A stretch of 64,000 nt of DNA, from positions 1 through 64,000 of the forward strand of contig WFVH01000003.1 in assembly GCA_015491735.1 (NCBI GenBank), given 5' to 3'. The notes under the pieces are model-generated. The model was not told the origin of the DNA. It made no database searches and was given only the letters and a program-made list of their open reading frames with translations. The position numbers were made by a program, and so were the translations under genes. Shown here one piece after another: positions 19,992 to 55,313 of the stretch (its first letter is position 1; every line of letters begins with the position of its first letter). Source of the DNA: Gammaproteobacteria bacterium. Its GTDB lineage: Bacteria > Pseudomonadota > Gammaproteobacteria > Thiohalospirales > Thiohalospiraceae.

Positions 19992-21476
19992 TTATGCTAA
20001 CCGTTTGCGTTCGCTGGATGGAGGTATGTTCATTATTTCGCGATATTTGGCTACCGTTCTTCGGGCCACCTTGATTCCCCGCTCCGAAAGAATCTGGGCG
20101 ATTTTGCTGTCGCTCAGGGGTTTTTTTGGCTCTTCTCCAAGAACCAGCTTTTTGATGTGTGCCTGGATGGCGGTTGATGATACCTCCCCTCCCCCGCTGG
20201 TTTTTACATGGCTGGAGAAGAAATATTTCAGCTCAAAGACACCCCTGGGTGTATGGATATATTTGCGGGTGGTCACGCGAGAAATAGTGGACTCGTGCAT
20301 ATCGACGGATTCGGCGATATCATGCAGCACCATCGGTTTCATGCCCAGTTCGCCATGCTCGAGAAAGTCACGCTGACGCTCGACGATGGTGCTGGCTACC
20401 TTGAGCAGCGTTTCACTGCGGCTTTGCAGGCTTTTCAGGAACCAGCGGGCTTCCTGCAGGTGGTTTTTAAGACAGACATTGTCCGTCGTGTTGTCCCCCC
20501 GGCGAACCATGCTGGCGTAGTGAGCATTGATGCCCAGCCTGGGGGCATTTTCCGGATTCAATTCTACCCGCCAGTTGCCGTTCACTTTGGTGACGAAAAC
20601 ATCGGGAACGACATACTCCGGACTGCTGCTGGAGATATGACCGCCAGGCCGGGGGTTGAGAGACTGTATCAGCTGGATGACCTGGTGCAGGCTCTCTTCA
20701 TTCAGTTGGCTGCGCCGCATCAGCTGGGTATAGTCCCGTTTGGCCAGCAGATTGAAGTGCCGTTGGATGACCATCTTTGCTTCGCTGAGCCAGGGCGCGT
20801 CGTCGGGTAGCTGCCGCAGTTGCAACAAGAGGCTCTCTTGCAGATTCCGCGCGCCGACGCCAGGAGGATCAAAGTTCTGAATGCGGTGCAGTACGGCAGT
20901 CAGCTCATCGCTCTCCAGCTCGGGCAGATCAGCGCTCAGCAGCTGATGTATCTCCTCTAACGGGGTAGCCAGGTAACCATCGTCACTGATTGCATCTATA
21001 ATTGCTTCGGCGATGATCTGGTCGGTTTGGCTGAAGTTGCCCATCTGCACCTGCCAGCGCAGGTGCTCGCCCAGATTCTCGGTAGCTGTGTTGCCTTGAA
21101 ACTCAAACTCCCGGTTTTCCTCGGTGGCGCCGCCCCCGCCAGAGGGGAATCCCGGCTCGTAGACATCCTCCCATCGGGTATCTACCGGAAGTTCGGAAGG
21201 GATGGCTTCCCCCTCTTTGCTGATATCCAGGGCTTGTAAATCGCTGTCAGCGGCGCTGGCGGGTTCAGACGGCTGGTTTTGCTGTTCGGCCCTGTCGCCG
21301 TGGCTGGCTTCACTCTCCTCATCTTGCCGTTCCAGCATGACATTGGATTCCAGTGCCTGCTGGATCTCGGCCTGCAACTCCACAGACGAGAGCTGTAGCA
21401 GACGTATCGCCTGCTGCAGCTGCGGCGTCATGGCGAGTTGTTGCCCGAGACGAAGATGTAATGTCTGTTTCATCAA
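19992..21476 (-). CDS. rpoN: RpoN, RNA polymerase sigma-54 factor
   Basis: The 494-residue protein has the glutamine- and leucine-rich N-terminal activator-interacting region (LRLGQQLAMTPQLQQAIRLL from residue 7), an acidic linker, the core-binding region and the C-terminal RpoN box ARRTVAKYRE (about 471-480). It directs polymerase to -24/-12 promoters opened by NtrC-type activators. Such a promoter and the activator are both found in this window, at glnA (50045-50060) and ntrC (53919). Confidence 0.97.
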   Translation of the reverse strand: MMKQTLHLRLGQQLAMTPQLQQAIRLLQLSSVELQAEIQQALESNVMLERQDEESEASHGDRAEQQNQPSEPASAADSDLQALDISKEGEAIPSELPVDTRWEDVYEPGFPSGGGGATEENREFEFQGNTATENLGEHLRWQVQMGNFSQTDQIIAEAIIDAISDDGYLATPLEEIHQLLSADLPELESDELTAVLHRIQNFDPPGVGARNLQESLLLQLRQLPDDAPWLSEAKMVIQRHFNLLAKRDYTQLMRRSQLNEESLHQVIQLIQSLNPRPGGHISSSSPEYVVPDVFVTKVNGNWRVELNPENAPRLGINAHYASMVRRGDNTTDNVCLKNHLQEARWFLKSLQSRSETLLKVASTIVERQRDFLEHGELGMKPMVLHDIAESVDMHESTISRVTTRKYIHTPRGVFELKYFFSSHVKTSGGGEVSSTAIQAHIKKLVLGEEPKKPLSDSKIAQILSERGIKVARRTVAKYREIMNIPPSSERKRLA

Positions 21477-32633: not shown

Positions 32634-34382
32634 ATGTGCGCATCTCCCCGTGTTCACCGTCTTTCCAACCGTTTGGCCAATCAGATTGCCGCCGGCGAAG
32701 TGGTGGAGCGTCCCGCTTCCGTTCTCAAGGAGCTGCTGGAGAACAGCCTTGACTCCGGTGCCACCAGTATCCGTGTTGATATCGAAGGCGGTGGGGTTCG
32801 CCTTATTCGAGTACAGGACAACGGCTGCGGGATTCACAAGGAGGATATGGCACTGGCGTTGAGCCGCCATGCAACCAGCAAAATTGGCAAACTGGCGGAT
32901 CTGGAAAAGCTGTCCAGCATGGGTTTTCGAGGCGAGGCGTTGGCAAGCATAACCTCGGTTTCCCGTTGCAGGGTTGTATCAAAAACAGTCGAGTCCAGGA
33001 CGGGATACGCCGTTGAGGTGGCGGGCAGCGAGTTGCAGGGTGAGCCTGTTCCCCAGGCCCACCCGTCGGGAACGACTGTGGAGGTGCGGGATCTTTTTTT
33101 CAATACGCCTGTGCGGCGGCGTTTTCTGCGCAGTGAGCGCACCGAGCAGGGTCATCTGGAAGATGTATTCAAGCGGATGGCGCTGAGCCGGTTCGGCATC
33201 CGCTTTTCTTTGCATGTTGGTCAGCGGAATATCTATAGATTACCTGCTTCACAGGATGTTGGCGGGCAAGAGCATCGTGTGATGCGGCTGTGTGGCAAGG
33301 CTTTTCTGAGTCATGCCCTGTTCATCGAGTTTGAAGCAGCCGGGATGTGTTTGCGGGGGTGGATTGCTACCCCGGATTTTGCCCGTAGTCAGACAGATCT
33401 GCAATATTTTTTTCTTAACGGACGTGCTATCCGGGACAGGCTGGTTAACCATGCTATCCGCCAGGCTTATCAGGATCGTCTCTACCACGGGAGGCATCCA
33501 GCCTACCTCCTGTTTTTGGAGATGGCGCCCGAACAGGTGGATGTGAACGTCCACCCAACGAAGCATGAAGTCCGGTTTCGAGAAGCCCGGTTGGTGCACG
33601 ATTTTTTGCTTGATACGCTTCAACGCGTTCTGGACGGGAGAGCTGAACGCGTGCCGGAACCCTCTGCCGGGAGCGGGAAGAGCTCTGCCCTCCCCCCGTG
33701 GGGAAAGAGGCCTGCCGCACCGGAATCTCCGGCCATCGACAGAGTCAACGAGCAGATGGCTGTCTACAAAAAGTTGCACGGGCCGCCGCAATCAGCGTTG
33801 ACAGACGCCCGCGGGGGCTTATCGGGTTCTGCACTGGCCGCGCTGTATGATCGTTATGTTCTTGTCCGGCAAAAGGAGAAGCTGTTATTGATCGATTCGG
33901 TGCGGGCGCGTGAATGCTTAATCAAGGAGCGATTGACGATATCCCTGAACAAGGGAGCCATATCCGCTCAGCCGCTGCTGCTGCCGGTTAGAGTCGAGCT
34001 GGAGGCGGGCCGCCGATACCGGAACGTGGAGCGGCTTGGCAAACAGCTGTACAGGTTTGGTATCGATATTTCGCTTGCCGGCCCGAAGCAGATTCTGGTG
34101 CGGCAACTTCCGGAGACAATACGCAACTGCAAACCCGATACCTTTATCACCACCCTGTTATCGGAAATAGAGCAAACGGGGGGAAAGGAGAATGAGCAAC
34201 GGATGATTAAAATGATAGCCCGGCATGCCGCACGAACCATCGCGCTGCCCGCGGCGCTCGATGAACTGAACGCCTTCTTGCGGGAAATCGAGCCATTGGC
34301 CGAGTACCGGCAGGGTGGAGCGGGTGTCAGCGTCGAGTTGGATCAGCCGGCTCTGGCGCGGTTATTTGTTAACCGGGGGTGA
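32634..34382 (+). CDS. mutL: MutL, DNA mismatch repair ATPase
   Basis: The 582-residue protein has the GHKL ATPase N-terminus: ELLENSLDSG (33-42), QDNGCGI and GFRGEALASI, all well kept. The C-terminal dimerisation domain begins near 395. The metal-binding DQHAxxER motif of endonuclease-type MutL is replaced by DSVRARECL, and no CPHGRP motif is seen, so it probably lacks nicking activity, as in E. coli, which would imply a MutH-type partner elsewhere. Its stop codon lies at the edge of a MITE fragment. Confidence 0.95.
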   Translation: MCASPRVHRLSNRLANQIAAGEVVERPASVLKELLENSLDSGATSIRVDIEGGGVRLIRVQDNGCGIHKEDMALALSRHATSKIGKLADLEKLSSMGFRGEALASITSVSRCRVVSKTVESRTGYAVEVAGSELQGEPVPQAHPSGTTVEVRDLFFNTPVRRRFLRSERTEQGHLEDVFKRMALSRFGIRFSLHVGQRNIYRLPASQDVGGQEHRVMRLCGKAFLSHALFIEFEAAGMCLRGWIATPDFARSQTDLQYFFLNGRAIRDRLVNHAIRQAYQDRLYHGRHPAYLLFLEMAPEQVDVNVHPTKHEVRFREARLVHDFLLDTLQRVLDGRAERVPEPSAGSGKSSALPPWGKRPAAPESPAIDRVNEQMAVYKKLHGPPQSALTDARGGLSGSALAALYDRYVLVRQKEKLLLIDSVRARECLIKERLTISLNKGAISAQPLLLPVRVELEAGRRYRNVERLGKQLYRFGIDISLAGPKQILVRQLPETIRNCKPDTFITTLLSEIEQTGGKENEQRMIKMIARHAARTIALPAALDELNAFLREIEPLAEYRQGGAGVSVELDQPALARLFVNRG

Positions 34383-34426
34383 GCTGAACAGTTACCGGCT
34401 TGTTTCATACTATGCTGAATAGTTAC
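34378..34426 (+). repeat. Truncated MITE fragment at the mutL stop
   Basis: GCTGAACAGTTACCGGCTTG to the end GCTGAATAGTTAC matches the last 44 bases of the intact element. The left part and palindrome are missing. The flanks TAACCGGG (34370-34377) and CAACCGGG (34427-34434) match at seven of eight places, suggesting the deletion happened within an inserted copy. It supplies the sequence just after and around the mutL stop codon. Confidence 0.75.
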
Positions 34427-49943: not shown

Positions 49944-49944
49944 T

Positions 49945-49989
49945 GCACCATAATGAGTCTTGCCTTGCCCCTGCGGATCATAATGGTGC
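49945..49989 (+). promoter_or_regulatory. Two candidate NtrC binding sites upstream of glnA
   Basis: Site 1 is GCACC-ATAAT-GAGTC (49945-49959); site 2 is GGATC-ATAAT-GGTGC (49975-49989). Each keeps one perfect half of the GCACC-N5-GGTGC palindrome. They are 30 bp apart centre to centre, about three helical turns. Relative to the predicted start at 50071 they lie near -119 and -89, like the glnA enhancer of E. coli. Confidence 0.65.
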
Positions 49990-50044
49990 GTACCGGGGCG
50001 TCAGGATTCAACTAACGGTCTGTTTTTCAAATGTCCAACAGGCA

Positions 50045-50060
50045 TGGCATATTTAATGCT
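50045..50060 (+). promoter_or_regulatory. Candidate sigma54 promoter of glnA
   Basis: TGGCATATTTAATGCT has GG at 50046-50047 and GC at 50058-50059 with exactly the -24/-12 spacing. It is close to the TGGCAC-N5-TTGC consensus. It predicts a transcript start near 50071. RpoN (19992-21476) and NtrC (53919-55313) are both encoded in the window. Confidence 0.7.
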
Positions 50061-50077
50061 TTTATGGTAGAACAGTT

Positions 50078-50229
50078 GTAACTATTCAGCATGGCATGAA
50101 ACAAGCCGGTAACTGTTCAGATTGCCCCTGAAATTCGTCAGTTCAAGGCGAAAAATGGGAGTTTACGCGTGTAAATGACCATTTTTCAACGCAGAAATGG
50201 CGGATTTCAGGGGTGAGCTGAATAGTTAC
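50078..50229 (-). mobile_element. 152-bp MITE, intact copy 3, in the glnA leader
   Basis: Reverse orientation, ends GTAACTATTCAGC and GCTGAATAGTTAC. The flanking 8-mers GAACAGTT (50070-50077 and 50230-50237) are identical. It lies directly downstream of the predicted sigma54 start site, so almost the whole glnA leader would be this palindrome. The element also brings an ATG (50197) that opens a 23-codon reading frame ending at 50268, 18 bases before glnA. Confidence 0.93.
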
Positions 50230-50286
50230 GAACAGTTTTTTCGAGTGGACTTTGGACTTAAACAATAATTGCCCGGAGGCGAGCAG

Positions 50287-51693
50287 ATGGCCAATAATGT
50301 GTTGAAGCTGATTGAAGATAAGGAAGTAAAGTTTGTCGATTTCCGTTTTACTGATACCCGGGGCAAAGAGCAGCATGTTACCTACCCCGCGGCAACGGTG
50401 GACGCGGATACCCTTTCGGAAGGGAAAATGTTTGATGGATCCTCCATCGCCGGCTGGAAGGGGATCCAGGAGTCCGACATGATTCTCAAGCCGGATCTGG
50501 ATACGGCCGTGCTGGATCCATTTACCGATGAATCCACCCTTATCATCCGTTGTGACATCATCGAGCCAAACACCATGCAGGGCTATGAGCGCGATCCCCG
50601 TTCTGTTGCCCGGCGCGCCGAGGCCTATCTGCAATCCACCGGCATCGGGGATACGGCCTACTTTGGCCCCGAGCCGGAGTTCTTCATTCTGGATGATGTG
50701 CGTTGGGGCGCCAGCATCGAGGGGGCTTTCTACAAGGTGAACTCCGAGGAGGCCGAATGGAACTCTGAAACCACCTTTGAAGGCGGTAATATCGGCCACC
50801 GTCCCAGTGTCAAAGGCGGTTATTTCCCGGTACCGCCGGTTGATTCACTGCACGATATCCGCGCCGCCATGTGTCTGGCCATGGAAGAGATGGGATTGAC
50901 CACGGAAGTTCACCATCATGAAGTGGCAACTGCCGGGCAGTGCGAGATTGGCACCGCTTTCAATACTTTGGTGCGCAAGGCGGATGAAGTGCAGATTCTC
51001 AAGTACTGCGTACACAATGTCGCCCACGCGTACGGCAAAACGGCAACCTTCATGCCCAAACCCCTGGTGGGCGATAACGGTACCGGCATGCATGTCCACC
51101 AGTCACTTGGCAAGGATGGGGTAAATATTTTCTCTGGCAACGAGTATGGCGGGCTGTCCGAGACAGCGCTGTACTATATTGGAGGCATCATCAAGCATGC
51201 CAGGGCGCTCAACGCGTTTACCAATGCCAGCACCAACAGTTACAAACGGCTGGTCCCCGGTTTTGAAGCCCCCGTCATGCTGGCCTACTCTGCCCGTAAT
51301 CGCTCTGCTTCGGTGCGCATCCCCTATGTTACCAACCCCAAGGCCCGCCGCATCGAGGTGCGTTTCCCCGATCCAACCGCCAACCCCTATCTGGCCTTTG
51401 CGGCCATGATGATGGCGGGTCTGGATGGTATCCAGAACAAGATCCATCCCGGTGAGGCGATGGACAAAAATCTTTATGATTTGCCGCCAGAAGAAGAGGC
51501 GAACATTCCCACCGTATGCCACTCTTTCGATCAAGCCCTGGAGGCTCTGGATAGCGACCGTGAGTTCCTGACGGCGGGAGGGGTCTTCACCAACGACATG
51601 ATTGATGGTTATATCGAACTCAAGATGGAGGAGATCACGCGTCTGCGAATGACAACTCATCCGGTTGAATTCGATATGTATTACAGCGTTTGA
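50287..51693 (+). CDS. glnA: GlnA, type I glutamine synthetase
   Basis: The 468-residue protein is read from the ATG after GGAGGCGAG. It has the beta-grasp N-domain and the catalytic barrel with [20 protein letters not shown], and [10 protein letters not shown]. The adenylylation Tyr in NLYDLPPEE (about 397) marks the GS I-beta type under GlnE control. It makes glutamine from glutamate and ammonia. Candidate NtrC sites and a sigma54 promoter lie upstream; a strong terminator follows. Confidence 0.98.
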
Positions 51694-51718: not shown

Positions 51719-51744
51719 ACAATGCCCCCATCTGGGGGCATTGT
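51719..51744 (+). terminator. Rho-independent terminator of glnA
   Basis: ACAATGCCCCC is exactly inverted as GGGGGCATTGT with the loop ATCT. A T-rich tail follows and is interrupted by a MITE at 51751. Confidence 0.85.
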
Positions 51745-51750
51745 TGTTTG

Positions 51751-51903
51751 GTAACTATTCAGCTCACCCCTGAAATCCGCCATTTCTGCGTTGAAAAAGG
51801 GTCATTTACACGCCGTAAACTCCCATTTTTCGCCTTGAACTGACGGATTTCAGGGGCAATCTGAACAGTTACCGGTTTGTTTCATACTATGCTGAATCGT
51901 TAC
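51751..51903 (+). mobile_element. 153-bp MITE, copy 4, after the glnA terminator
   Basis: Left end GTAACTATTCAGC; right end GCTGAATCGTTAC with one change. Flanks GTTGTTTG and GTTGTTTA match at seven of eight places. It lies in the T-rich tail of the glnA terminator, upstream of the DUF4124 gene. Confidence 0.9.
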
Positions 51904-52505: not shown

Positions 52506-52683
52506 GTTTATCGCATGGCAAGCGCACCAGTTTGGTGCATCAATGCCCCGTTTACGGTAATATTGCTTTCGCCCGGGTTTCCTGTTTCCCTCTCGCTTGG
52601 GGGGGGCTGCCCGTTTTCTTGTTTTTGCCTGCTAAATTGGTTGCCCGATGGGGGTTTGGTTTGGTTTTTGCTTGCTACCTGAT

Positions 52684-53766
52684 ATGGATGCCGTGACAAA
52701 TCAAACCCGTACCGCCGCACCGTATATTCTCGACAATCTGAGCGTTGCTATCTGTCTGCTGGATGCCGGTTTACGAATTCGTTATATCAATCCGGCAGGT
52801 GAAACCCTGTTCGGCGCCAGCGCCCAGCGCCTGCAGCGCCTTCCTGTGGAGCAACTGCTCGACTCTCCCGGTGTGGCGGAACTTCTTGCCAGTACGCTGG
52901 AAAGTGGCTCCCCTTGTATTGAACGTGAATGTCGTTTGGGCACCGGGGGTCATAGTCCGGTAACCGTCGATCTGACGGCAATTCCGCTGAGGGAACCGCC
53001 CGGTTCCCGCGAGCTGCTTGTGGAGTTGGTTCGTGTCGATCATCAGATACGCATGGCGAGGGAAGAAAACCTGCTTGCGCAGCAGCAGATTACGCAGGAA
53101 ATCGTGCGCGGTTTGGCGCATGAGATCAAGAACCCGTTAGGGGGGGTGCGTGGGGCAGCTCAGTTGCTGGAGTGCGAGCTGGATGACACTTCGTTACAGG
53201 AGTACACCCAGGTGATCGTTCATGAGGTCGACCGGCTGCAGACTCTGTTGAACCGCATGCTCGGGCCACACAGGCTTCCGCGCAAGCGGAAGATAAACAT
53301 TCATCAGGTGGTGGAGCGGGTTCGCACGTTGGTGCAGGCGGAGGTGGCGGCTGGAGTTACTCTGCTTTGGGACTACGATCCGAGTTTGCCGGAGCTGAAC
53401 GCGGATATGGATCAGCTAATCCAGGCCGTTCTGAATATCGTGCGTAACGCTGTGCAGGCGTTACCGGAAGAGGGGGAGATCATTCTGCGTACACGTGCGC
53501 ACCGGCGCTGTACAGTAGGGCATGTGTGCCACCGGCTGGTATTGTGTATCGATGTTATCGATAACGGCCCCGGAATACCGGAGTCCATGCAGCAGAAAAT
53601 TTTCTATCCACTGGTTACCGGCCGGGCTGAAGGAACAGGACTGGGATTGTCCATTGCCCAGTCACTGGTAAACCAGCACGGTGGCTTGATTGAGTGCCAT
53701 AGCCGCCCGGGAAGAACCCGGTTTTCGATTTTGCTGCCTGTACGGGAAGAGCAAGAAAATGGGTAA
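52684..53766 (+). CDS. glnL: NtrB (GlnL), nitrogen regulation sensor kinase
   Basis: The 360-residue kinase, read from MDAVTNQTRT, has a PAS domain (about 12-120), HisKA with His146 in GLAHEIKNPLGG, and an ATPase domain with NIVRNAVQAL and GTGLGLSIAQSL. It phosphorylates or dephosphorylates NtrC under PII control. The stop TAA is supplied by the MITE inserted at its end. Removing the element and one target copy restores GAA AAT GAG TAG, overlapping the ntrC start. Confidence 0.95.
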   Translation: MDAVTNQTRTAAPYILDNLSVAICLLDAGLRIRYINPAGETLFGASAQRLQRLPVEQLLDSPGVAELLASTLESGSPCIERECRLGTGGHSPVTVDLTAIPLREPPGSRELLVELVRVDHQIRMAREENLLAQQQITQEIVRGLAHEIKNPLGGVRGAAQLLECELDDTSLQEYTQVIVHEVDRLQTLLNRMLGPHRLPRKRKINIHQVVERVRTLVQAEVAAGVTLLWDYDPSLPELNADMDQLIQAVLNIVRNAVQALPEEGEIILRTRAHRRCTVGHVCHRLVLCIDVIDNGPGIPESMQQKIFYPLVTGRAEGTGLGLSIAQSLVNQHGGLIECHSRPGRTRFSILLPVREEQENG

Positions 53767-53914
53767 CTATCCAGCTCACCCCTGAAATCCGCCATTTCTG
53801 CGTTGAAAAATGCTCATTTACACGCGTAAACTCCCATTTTTCGCCTTGAACTGACGAATTTCAGGGGCAATCTGAACAGTTACCGGCTTGTTTCATACTA
53901 TGCTGAATAGTTAC
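53763..53914 (+). mobile_element. 152-bp MITE, copy 5, inserted between ntrB and ntrC
   Basis: Left end GTAACTATCCAGC (one change), right end GCTGAATAGTTAC. Flanks GAAAATGG (53755-53762) and GAAAATGA (53915-53922) match at seven of eight places. The duplicated target contains the ntrC start codon. The insertion ends ntrB early and places a long palindrome between the two genes. Confidence 0.92.
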
Positions 53915-53918
53915 GAAA

Positions 53919-55313
53919 ATGAGTAGTCAACCACAGATATGGGTTATCGATGATGACCGGTCAATCCGCTGGGTGCTGGAAAAAGCGCTCTGCAAGGCGG
54001 GTATCGGGGTCAGGAGTTTTGAGAGCGCGCGTGGAATATTGGAAGGGCTGGCAAAACAGCCGCCGCATGCCATTGTGTCGGATATCCGCATGCCGGGCAT
54101 CGATGGGCTGAAGCTGCTGGAGAATATCCGTCAGAACTATCCAGCCTTGCCAGTTATCATCATGACCGCCCATTCCGATCTGGAAAGCGCCGTCTCTGCC
54201 TATCAGGGGGGGGCCTTCGAGTATCTGCCCAAGCCCTTTGATGTGGATACTGCCGTTGAGCTGGTACAGCGGGCCATTGTCCATGCCGGCAATCAGGAAG
54301 AGCTGTCAGGGCATACGGATATGCCCGAGATTTTGGGGGAGGCGCCGGCCATGCAGGAGGTATTCCGCGCCATCGGCCGTCTGTCTCGCTCCAATATTAC
54401 CGTATTAATAAACGGGGAATCGGGTACCGGAAAAGAGCTTGTGGCGCGAGCGCTGCACCGGCACAGTCCGCGCCGTAACAAACCTTTTATTGCTCTGAAC
54501 ATGGCCGCCCTCCCCCGCGATCTGTTGGAATCCGAGCTGTTTGGCCATGAACGCGGTGCATTTACGGGTGCCCAAAGTCAGCGTCAAGGGCGCTTTGAAC
54601 AGGCGGATGAGGGCACTTTGTTTCTGGATGAAATTGGGGATATGCCTGCCGAACTGCAAACCCGGTTGTTGCGTGTTCTTGCCGACGGAGAGTTCTATCG
54701 GGTCGGTGGACATGCCCCAATCAAAGTCGATGTGCGGATTATCGCCGCTACCCATCAGAAACTGGAGGCTCTGGTGGCGGATGGGCGTTTCCGTGAGGAT
54801 CTGTTTCATCGTCTGAACGTTATTCGCATTCATATCCCCCCACTGCGCGAGCGGCGTGAAGATATTCCTTTGTTGATGAACCATTTTCTTCAAGCCGCTG
54901 CCGGTGAACTGGATATCAAGAGAAAACGGGCCAGCAGGGATGTTGTGAACTATTTGGCCAGCCTGAATTGGCCCGGCAATGTACGGCAGTTGGAAAATAT
55001 CTGTCGTTGGCTGACTGTCATGTCTCCCGGCCAGGTCATCACCATGGAGGATCTTCCTCCCGAGCTGAGAGCCGAGACAGAAAGCCCACCCACCAGCGAC
55101 GACTGGCAGGCCGGTTTGCGGCGCTGGACTGAACAACGCCTGGCGCAAGGAGAAACCGGGCTGCTGGATGTTGCTACTCCCCTCTTCGAAAAAGTCATGA
55201 TTGAAGCGGCCTTGGAACATACCGGAGATCGGCGCCAGGAAGCCGCAAAAATGTTGGGGTGGGGAAGAAATACGCTGACACGCAAGATCAAGGAGCTGGC
55301 TTTGGAGCGGTGA
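53919..55313 (+). CDS. glnG: NtrC (GlnG), nitrogen regulation sigma54 activator
   Basis: The 464-residue response regulator has a receiver domain (Asp55 in [10 protein letters not shown]), a sigma54 AAA+ domain with GESGTGKE and the sigma54-contacting loop GAFTGA, and a C-terminal Fis-type helix-turn-helix ([20 protein letters not shown]). It activates glnA and other nitrogen genes. The start codon lies in the right-hand target duplication of the MITE, and no strong ribosome site is left in front of it. Confidence 0.97.

Follow-up and report, generated by a model that had tools for sequence, protein, structure and literature searches.

The window analysed here is a stretch of 64,000 nucleotides from a gammaproteobacterium of the Thiohalospiraceae (contig WFVH01000003.1, positions 1 to 64,000), and it contains glnA together with the regulatory genes ntrB and ntrC downstream and rpoN elsewhere on the opposite strand. 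The region before glnA extends from the stop of a cation-efflux gene (49943) to the glnA ATG and holds two NtrC-like sites, a sigma54 element and a miniature inverted-repeat transposable element (MITE) at the predicted transcript start; two further copies of the MITE lie in the same nitrogen cluster (Table 1).

Table 1 Features of the nitrogen cluster and of the MITE copies within it (positions in the window).
Feature	Positions	Strand	Remarks
rpoN, sigma54	19992..21476 (about)	-	PF04552 at 20001-20471, E 7.6e-69; 502-codon open frame
NtrC-like site 1 TGCACCATAATGAGTCT	49944..49960	+	centre -119; 10/14 of dyad consensus
NtrC-like site 2 CGGATCATAATGGTGCG	49974..49990	+	centre -89; 10/14 of dyad consensus
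sigma54 -24/-12 element TGGCATATTTAATGCT	50045..50060	+	GG-N10-GC, conserved in six same-genus genomes
target site duplication GAACAGTT, left copy	50070..50077	.	perfect 8/8
predicted transcript start (+1)	50071	+	from the -12 position (promoter geometry)
IS66-type MITE, 152 bp	50078..50229	+	2 differences from 85-copy consensus
outer left terminal inverted repeat GTAACTATTCAGC	50078..50090	+	13 bp, 100% complementary to 50217-50229
imperfect palindrome, 121 bp (inner repeat and right end)	50109..50229	+	folds as long hairpin (predicted)
upstream frame, 23 codons (MADFRGELNSYEQFFRVDFGLKQ)	50197..50268	+	judged incidental: ATG in stem, no Shine-Dalgarno
target site duplication GAACAGTT, right copy	50230..50237	.	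perfect 8/8
remaining native glnA leader, Shine-Dalgarno GGAGG	50238..50286	+	aligns with relatives; GGAGGCG conserved
glnA, glutamine synthetase	50287..51693	+	PF00120, PF03951
second MITE copy, T tail of glnA terminator-like hairpin	51751..51903	-	duplication 7/8 (GTTGTTTG/GTTGTTTA)
ntrB (glnL), sensor kinase	52648..53766	+	PAS, HisKA, HATPase_c
third MITE copy, ntrB/ntrC junction	53763..53914	-	duplication 7/8 (GAAAATGG/GAAAATGA)
ntrC (glnG), sigma54 activator	53919..55313	+	PF00158, PF00072, PF02954

An earlier note on this DNA had proposed two NtrC-like sites 30 bp apart and a correctly spaced -24/-12 element before glnA, and our analysis bears out both. Each NtrC-like dyad consists of one good and one degraded half, and a pair this good occurred in 0.1% of randomised copies. 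Comparable sites recur at roughly these distances in most same-genus relatives, the distal one near -115 to -119 in most of them and the proximal one near -86 to -89 in several. The sigma54 element, with GG at 50046-47 and GC at 50058-59 (GG to GC spacing 12), was the top match of the region by consensus score, which is modest by itself, as 1.8% of copies randomised by a first-order Markov model reached that score. The decisive evidence for the putative sigma54 promoter is conservation within the genus rather than score: the same element occupies the same place in six other genomes (L123-L127, L152), where the conserved block around it runs as far as the point of insertion. Of 107 regions upstream of glnA in other bacteria, 98 also had a well-scoring GG-N10-GC site. 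The NtrC of the window carries the sigma54-interaction domain, and with rpoN and ntrC both encoded in the window, control of glnA by a putative NtrC/sigma54 promoter is supported. Counting from the -12 position places +1 at about 50071, so the insertion would leave the promoter as it was and would not change the first seven nucleotides of the mRNA either. On the 3' side of the -12 part, the block TTTTGTGGTAGAAC (50060-50073) resembles an extended -10 box and shows more conservation across the genus than a sigma54 promoter would need.

The MITE that the same note had recognised, with its target at 50070-50077, is delimited by a perfect 8-bp duplication and perfect 13-bp ends. It is absent from each of the six other genomes of the genus in which the DNA upstream of glnA could be read, and in two of these (L123 and L124) the empty site, GGTAGAACAGTTTTTT, equals the window minus the element and one GAACAGTT, of which it has a single copy. 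The glnA copy is young, because just two of its positions differ from the consensus. On these sequence comparisons, in which the species is represented by one genome, the MITE insertion at the predicted sigma54 transcript start is real, well defined and recent. A second sigma54 promoter within the element (TGGCATGAAACAAGCC, 50092, score 7.32) was considered and rejected, as its -12 part is poor and the variant also occurs in another copy; the motif arises from the sole two differences between the glnA copy and the consensus. A 9-mer, GCATGGCAT, is found both at 50089-50097 and at 50042-50050 in the -24 region, giving a weak second sigma54-like motif in the element.

Copies of the MITE number well over a hundred in the 2.43-Mb genome, where 161 exact right ends of the element were counted, as were 348 exact 13-bp ends, compared to none with the reversed control. 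The element is short, multi-copy and non-coding, has terminal inverted repeats and a target duplication, and corresponds to empty sites in relatives. Among the 85 copies with both flanks, 72 have an 8-bp duplication (63 perfect, 9 matching at 7/8), and these 85 copies show a palindromic target preference, with A/T pairs immediately outside the duplicated 8 bp. In a target model built without the glnA site, that site ranked 5th of 175 intergenic positions, above 99.5% of background, and since the target preference of the family fits the landing site, the position at +1 needs no special explanation. Using gene predictions from a simple codon-usage gene caller, we found none of the 85 copies within a predicted gene, while five extend four bases into the 3' end of a neighbouring gene, the ntrB case included. 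Targeting of sigma54 promoters by the MITE was also considered; there is no sign of it among the 170 flanks sampled, because none of the other 169 has a sigma54 site this strong. Elsewhere in the window, a solo left end of the element (34376-34426) overlaps the stop of a gene ending at 34382.

Copies are present in same-genus genomes in varied numbers, and relatives of the element were found in 12 of the 274 genomes sampled from the class (own genome included; ten genera by tally), often as the 121-bp core lacking the first 31 bases, which is a stand-alone form in other genomes. G020, G173, G282 and others carry the family at roughly 73-91% identity, often as this core, with a patchy occurrence in distant families of the class. 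Such patchiness suggests, from sequence similarity, an old or horizontally spread element. The plasmids and phages searched gave no match to the MITE, and Rfam families gave none above the gathering threshold. Published Thiomargarita MITEs were rejected as members of the same family, the described ones having a 10-bp direct repeat or TATA ends (PMC4853749).

The GTAA ends and the 8-bp duplication are features of the IS66 family, whose ends start with GTAA and typically continue with GCG, and which duplicates 8 bp of target (PMC11946415). A 13-bp end identical to that of the MITE is also found upstream of an IS66-type transposase remnant in the same genome, but the MITE differs from IS66 elements in lacking coding capacity and in ends that continue with CTATTCAGC rather than GCG (PMC11946415). 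The remnant is a truncated gene and the only match to PF03050 (IS66 transposase) in the genome, with an exact copy of the 13-bp MITE left end about 240 bp upstream; a right end was not found there. It is located at G000:C39:10823-12766 (L240:2324-4266) and the gene after it looks like a REP-associated (Y1) transposase. The remnant is a probable dead parent element of the MITE. A search of the genus by transposase similarity found no intact autonomous IS66 partner, and seven same-genus genomes gave no match to the transposase of the remnant.

The insertion extends the predicted glnA leader to 216 nt compared to 56 nt for the empty site (216 - 160). Leaders in the genus measure 50-62 nt, and those of the relatives compared are without the element, in agreement with the figure of about 60 nt previously given for the leader before insertion. 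Predicted folding energy is -95 kcal/mol with the element and -19 kcal/mol without it, and nearly all of this gain comes from the 121-nt palindrome, such that the leader is indeed mostly a long hairpin, with mismatches in its predicted stem. The suggestion that initiation at glnA might be changed fared less well. Such a change is unlikely, since the insertion left the native Shine-Dalgarno untouched, along with the final 49 nt of leader that follow the duplicated target, and since the element makes little difference to how accessible the Shine-Dalgarno and start codon are predicted to be. Because accessibility is predicted to be similar in both leaders, GlnA translation is expected to be largely insulated, with any effect arising at the mRNA 5' end; the direct effect on translation would most likely be little, as judged from the folding models. 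An effect on glnA mRNA stability is plausible by analogy with Correia and ERIC elements, and the leader hairpin is probably, by similar analogy, a substrate for RNase III.

Both further copies in the nitrogen cluster are species-specific. The second lies beside the terminator-like hairpin after glnA (about 51722-51741), and the third supplies the ntrB stop codon with its GTAA end, its target GAAAATGA having held the ntrC ATG. Both genes could be read in four relatives, and in these ntrC starts at or very near the ntrB end, such that the genes adjoin or overlap, and the region has no MITE copy. Here, 152 bp of hairpin now stand between the likely ancestral Shine-Dalgarno (GGGAAGAG, about 53745) and the ntrC ATG (53919), beside which no Shine-Dalgarno is evident. 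The ntrB/ntrC copy may matter more for nitrogen control than the copy in the glnA leader. It is conceivable, if unlikely, that the three species-specific insertions jointly rewired nitrogen control, with the leader hairpin resetting glnA mRNA half-life, the ntrC ATG parted from its ancestral Shine-Dalgarno, the ntrB-ntrC overlap broken and the NtrB:NtrC ratio altered. The hairpin at this junction could then act as a ribosome binding site in two parts, in the manner of T4 gene 25; RNA structure bridges split sites of this kind in T4 genes 25 and 38 (PMC3014915).

Several other accounts of the leader insertion were weighed. The element could stabilise glnA mRNA through a 5'-terminal stem of the ompA kind, which would impede removal of pyrophosphate and access of RNase E; we regard this account as unlikely. 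Stem-loops at the 5' terminus are established stabilisers (Emory 1992 and Arnold 1998, as cited in PMC3997798), the near-palindromic duplication (AACAGTT, 6/7 self-pairing) extends the outer-repeat stem to the first nucleotide, and a fold pairing the first nucleotides comes within 1.4 kcal/mol of the best (-74.4 vs. -75.8). However, the inner-repeat fold is slightly favored, leaving the 5' end mostly free, and a cut by RNase III in the stem, if made, would create a new 5'-monophosphate end. That the hairpin and the T6 run (50236-50241) instead act as a partial terminator or attenuator, resulting in less glnA expression, is quite improbable: a long stem is followed by a T run, and by only four T once the outer fold is extended through the duplication, but the stem of the best fold stops 6 nt before the run, its base is A/U-rich, and a terminator scan detected no plus-strand terminator at the glnA leader element.

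The element would be absent from the leader, or only partly included, if the main glnA promoter were another one, located in or 3' of the element or formed by a sigma70 promoter over the TGnTAGAAC block (50065-50073). Both the conservation of TTTTGTGGTAGAAC in excess of sigma54 needs and the E. coli gene, which has a sigma70 promoter besides its sigma54 promoter, are consistent with this, but the promoter scan returned none convincing within the element, and its plus-strand sigma70-like match at 50269-50298 overlaps the glnA start; we consider such a promoter distinctly unlikely. The 23-codon upstream frame described in the earlier note is present and starts in the element, with its stop 18 nt 5' of the glnA ATG, but a regulatory role for it is highly improbable, as its start codon is buried in the hairpin stem with no Shine-Dalgarno before it, its first codons are MITE consensus common to the copies at 51783 and 53795 (minus strand), and relatives have no counterpart. 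Many contigs end in a MITE repeat, as would be seen if assemblies were joined wrongly at one of many near-identical repeats, yet an artefact of this kind is very unlikely indeed at glnA, because the target duplication is perfect and both flanks are collinear with the empty site of same-genus relatives.

We consider it probable that a recently amplified IS66-type MITE inserted by ordinary transposition at the predicted transcript start of an otherwise intact NtrC/sigma54 glnA promoter, giving a near-neutral leader hairpin. Its target there is of the kind that the family prefers and takes in roughly the first eight positions at +1. Transcription would still begin at about 50071, and the opening seven nucleotides would stay the same. 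The entire element would then form a hairpin of about -70 kcal/mol in the 5' part of the glnA mRNA, where RNase III would probably cut it like the hairpins of Correia (NEMIS) elements. As the native Shine-Dalgarno region lies beyond the element and is unaltered, the synthesis of GlnA would be changed little, or mainly via mRNA half-life, and the insertion would have been tolerated rather than selected. MITE hairpins in leaders and their processing by RNase III are already known as general principles. The locus adds a natural experiment in which a mobile hairpin has landed among the nucleotides predicted to be transcribed first from a regulated promoter that is well understood, and the empty sites of close relatives serve as controls. 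It also draws attention to an apparently little-described family of IS66-type MITEs, whose insertions can change leaders, terminators and gene junctions while sparing the genes themselves.

The promoter resembles E. coli glnAp2, where NtrC sites separated by about 30 bp precede a sigma54 promoter with a short leader, but the sites in the window are centred at about -89/-119 compared to about -108/-140 in E. coli, and the leader in the window contains the MITE. ERIC of enterobacteria is likewise an intergenic palindromic element that folds in mRNA, and it can alter transcript stability (PMC2229807), although its sequence is unrelated and its known effect concerns the transcripts of upstream genes in Yersinia. 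The closest precedent for the glnA insertion is the Correia (NEMIS) element just 3' of the mtrCDE promoter in Neisseria, described by Rouquette-Loughlin 2004 as recounted in a review (PMC10969869). Correia-containing transcripts, mtrCDE included, are cleaved by RNase III (PMC10969869). Both are hairpin-forming MITEs of similar size immediately 3' of a promoter and co-transcribed in the leader, as predicted for glnA, whereas Correia termini carry TA in place of the GTAA ends and 8-bp duplication of the element described here, the promoter here is of the sigma54 type, and the IHF site and cleavage belong to Correia, the hairpin at glnA being known by prediction.
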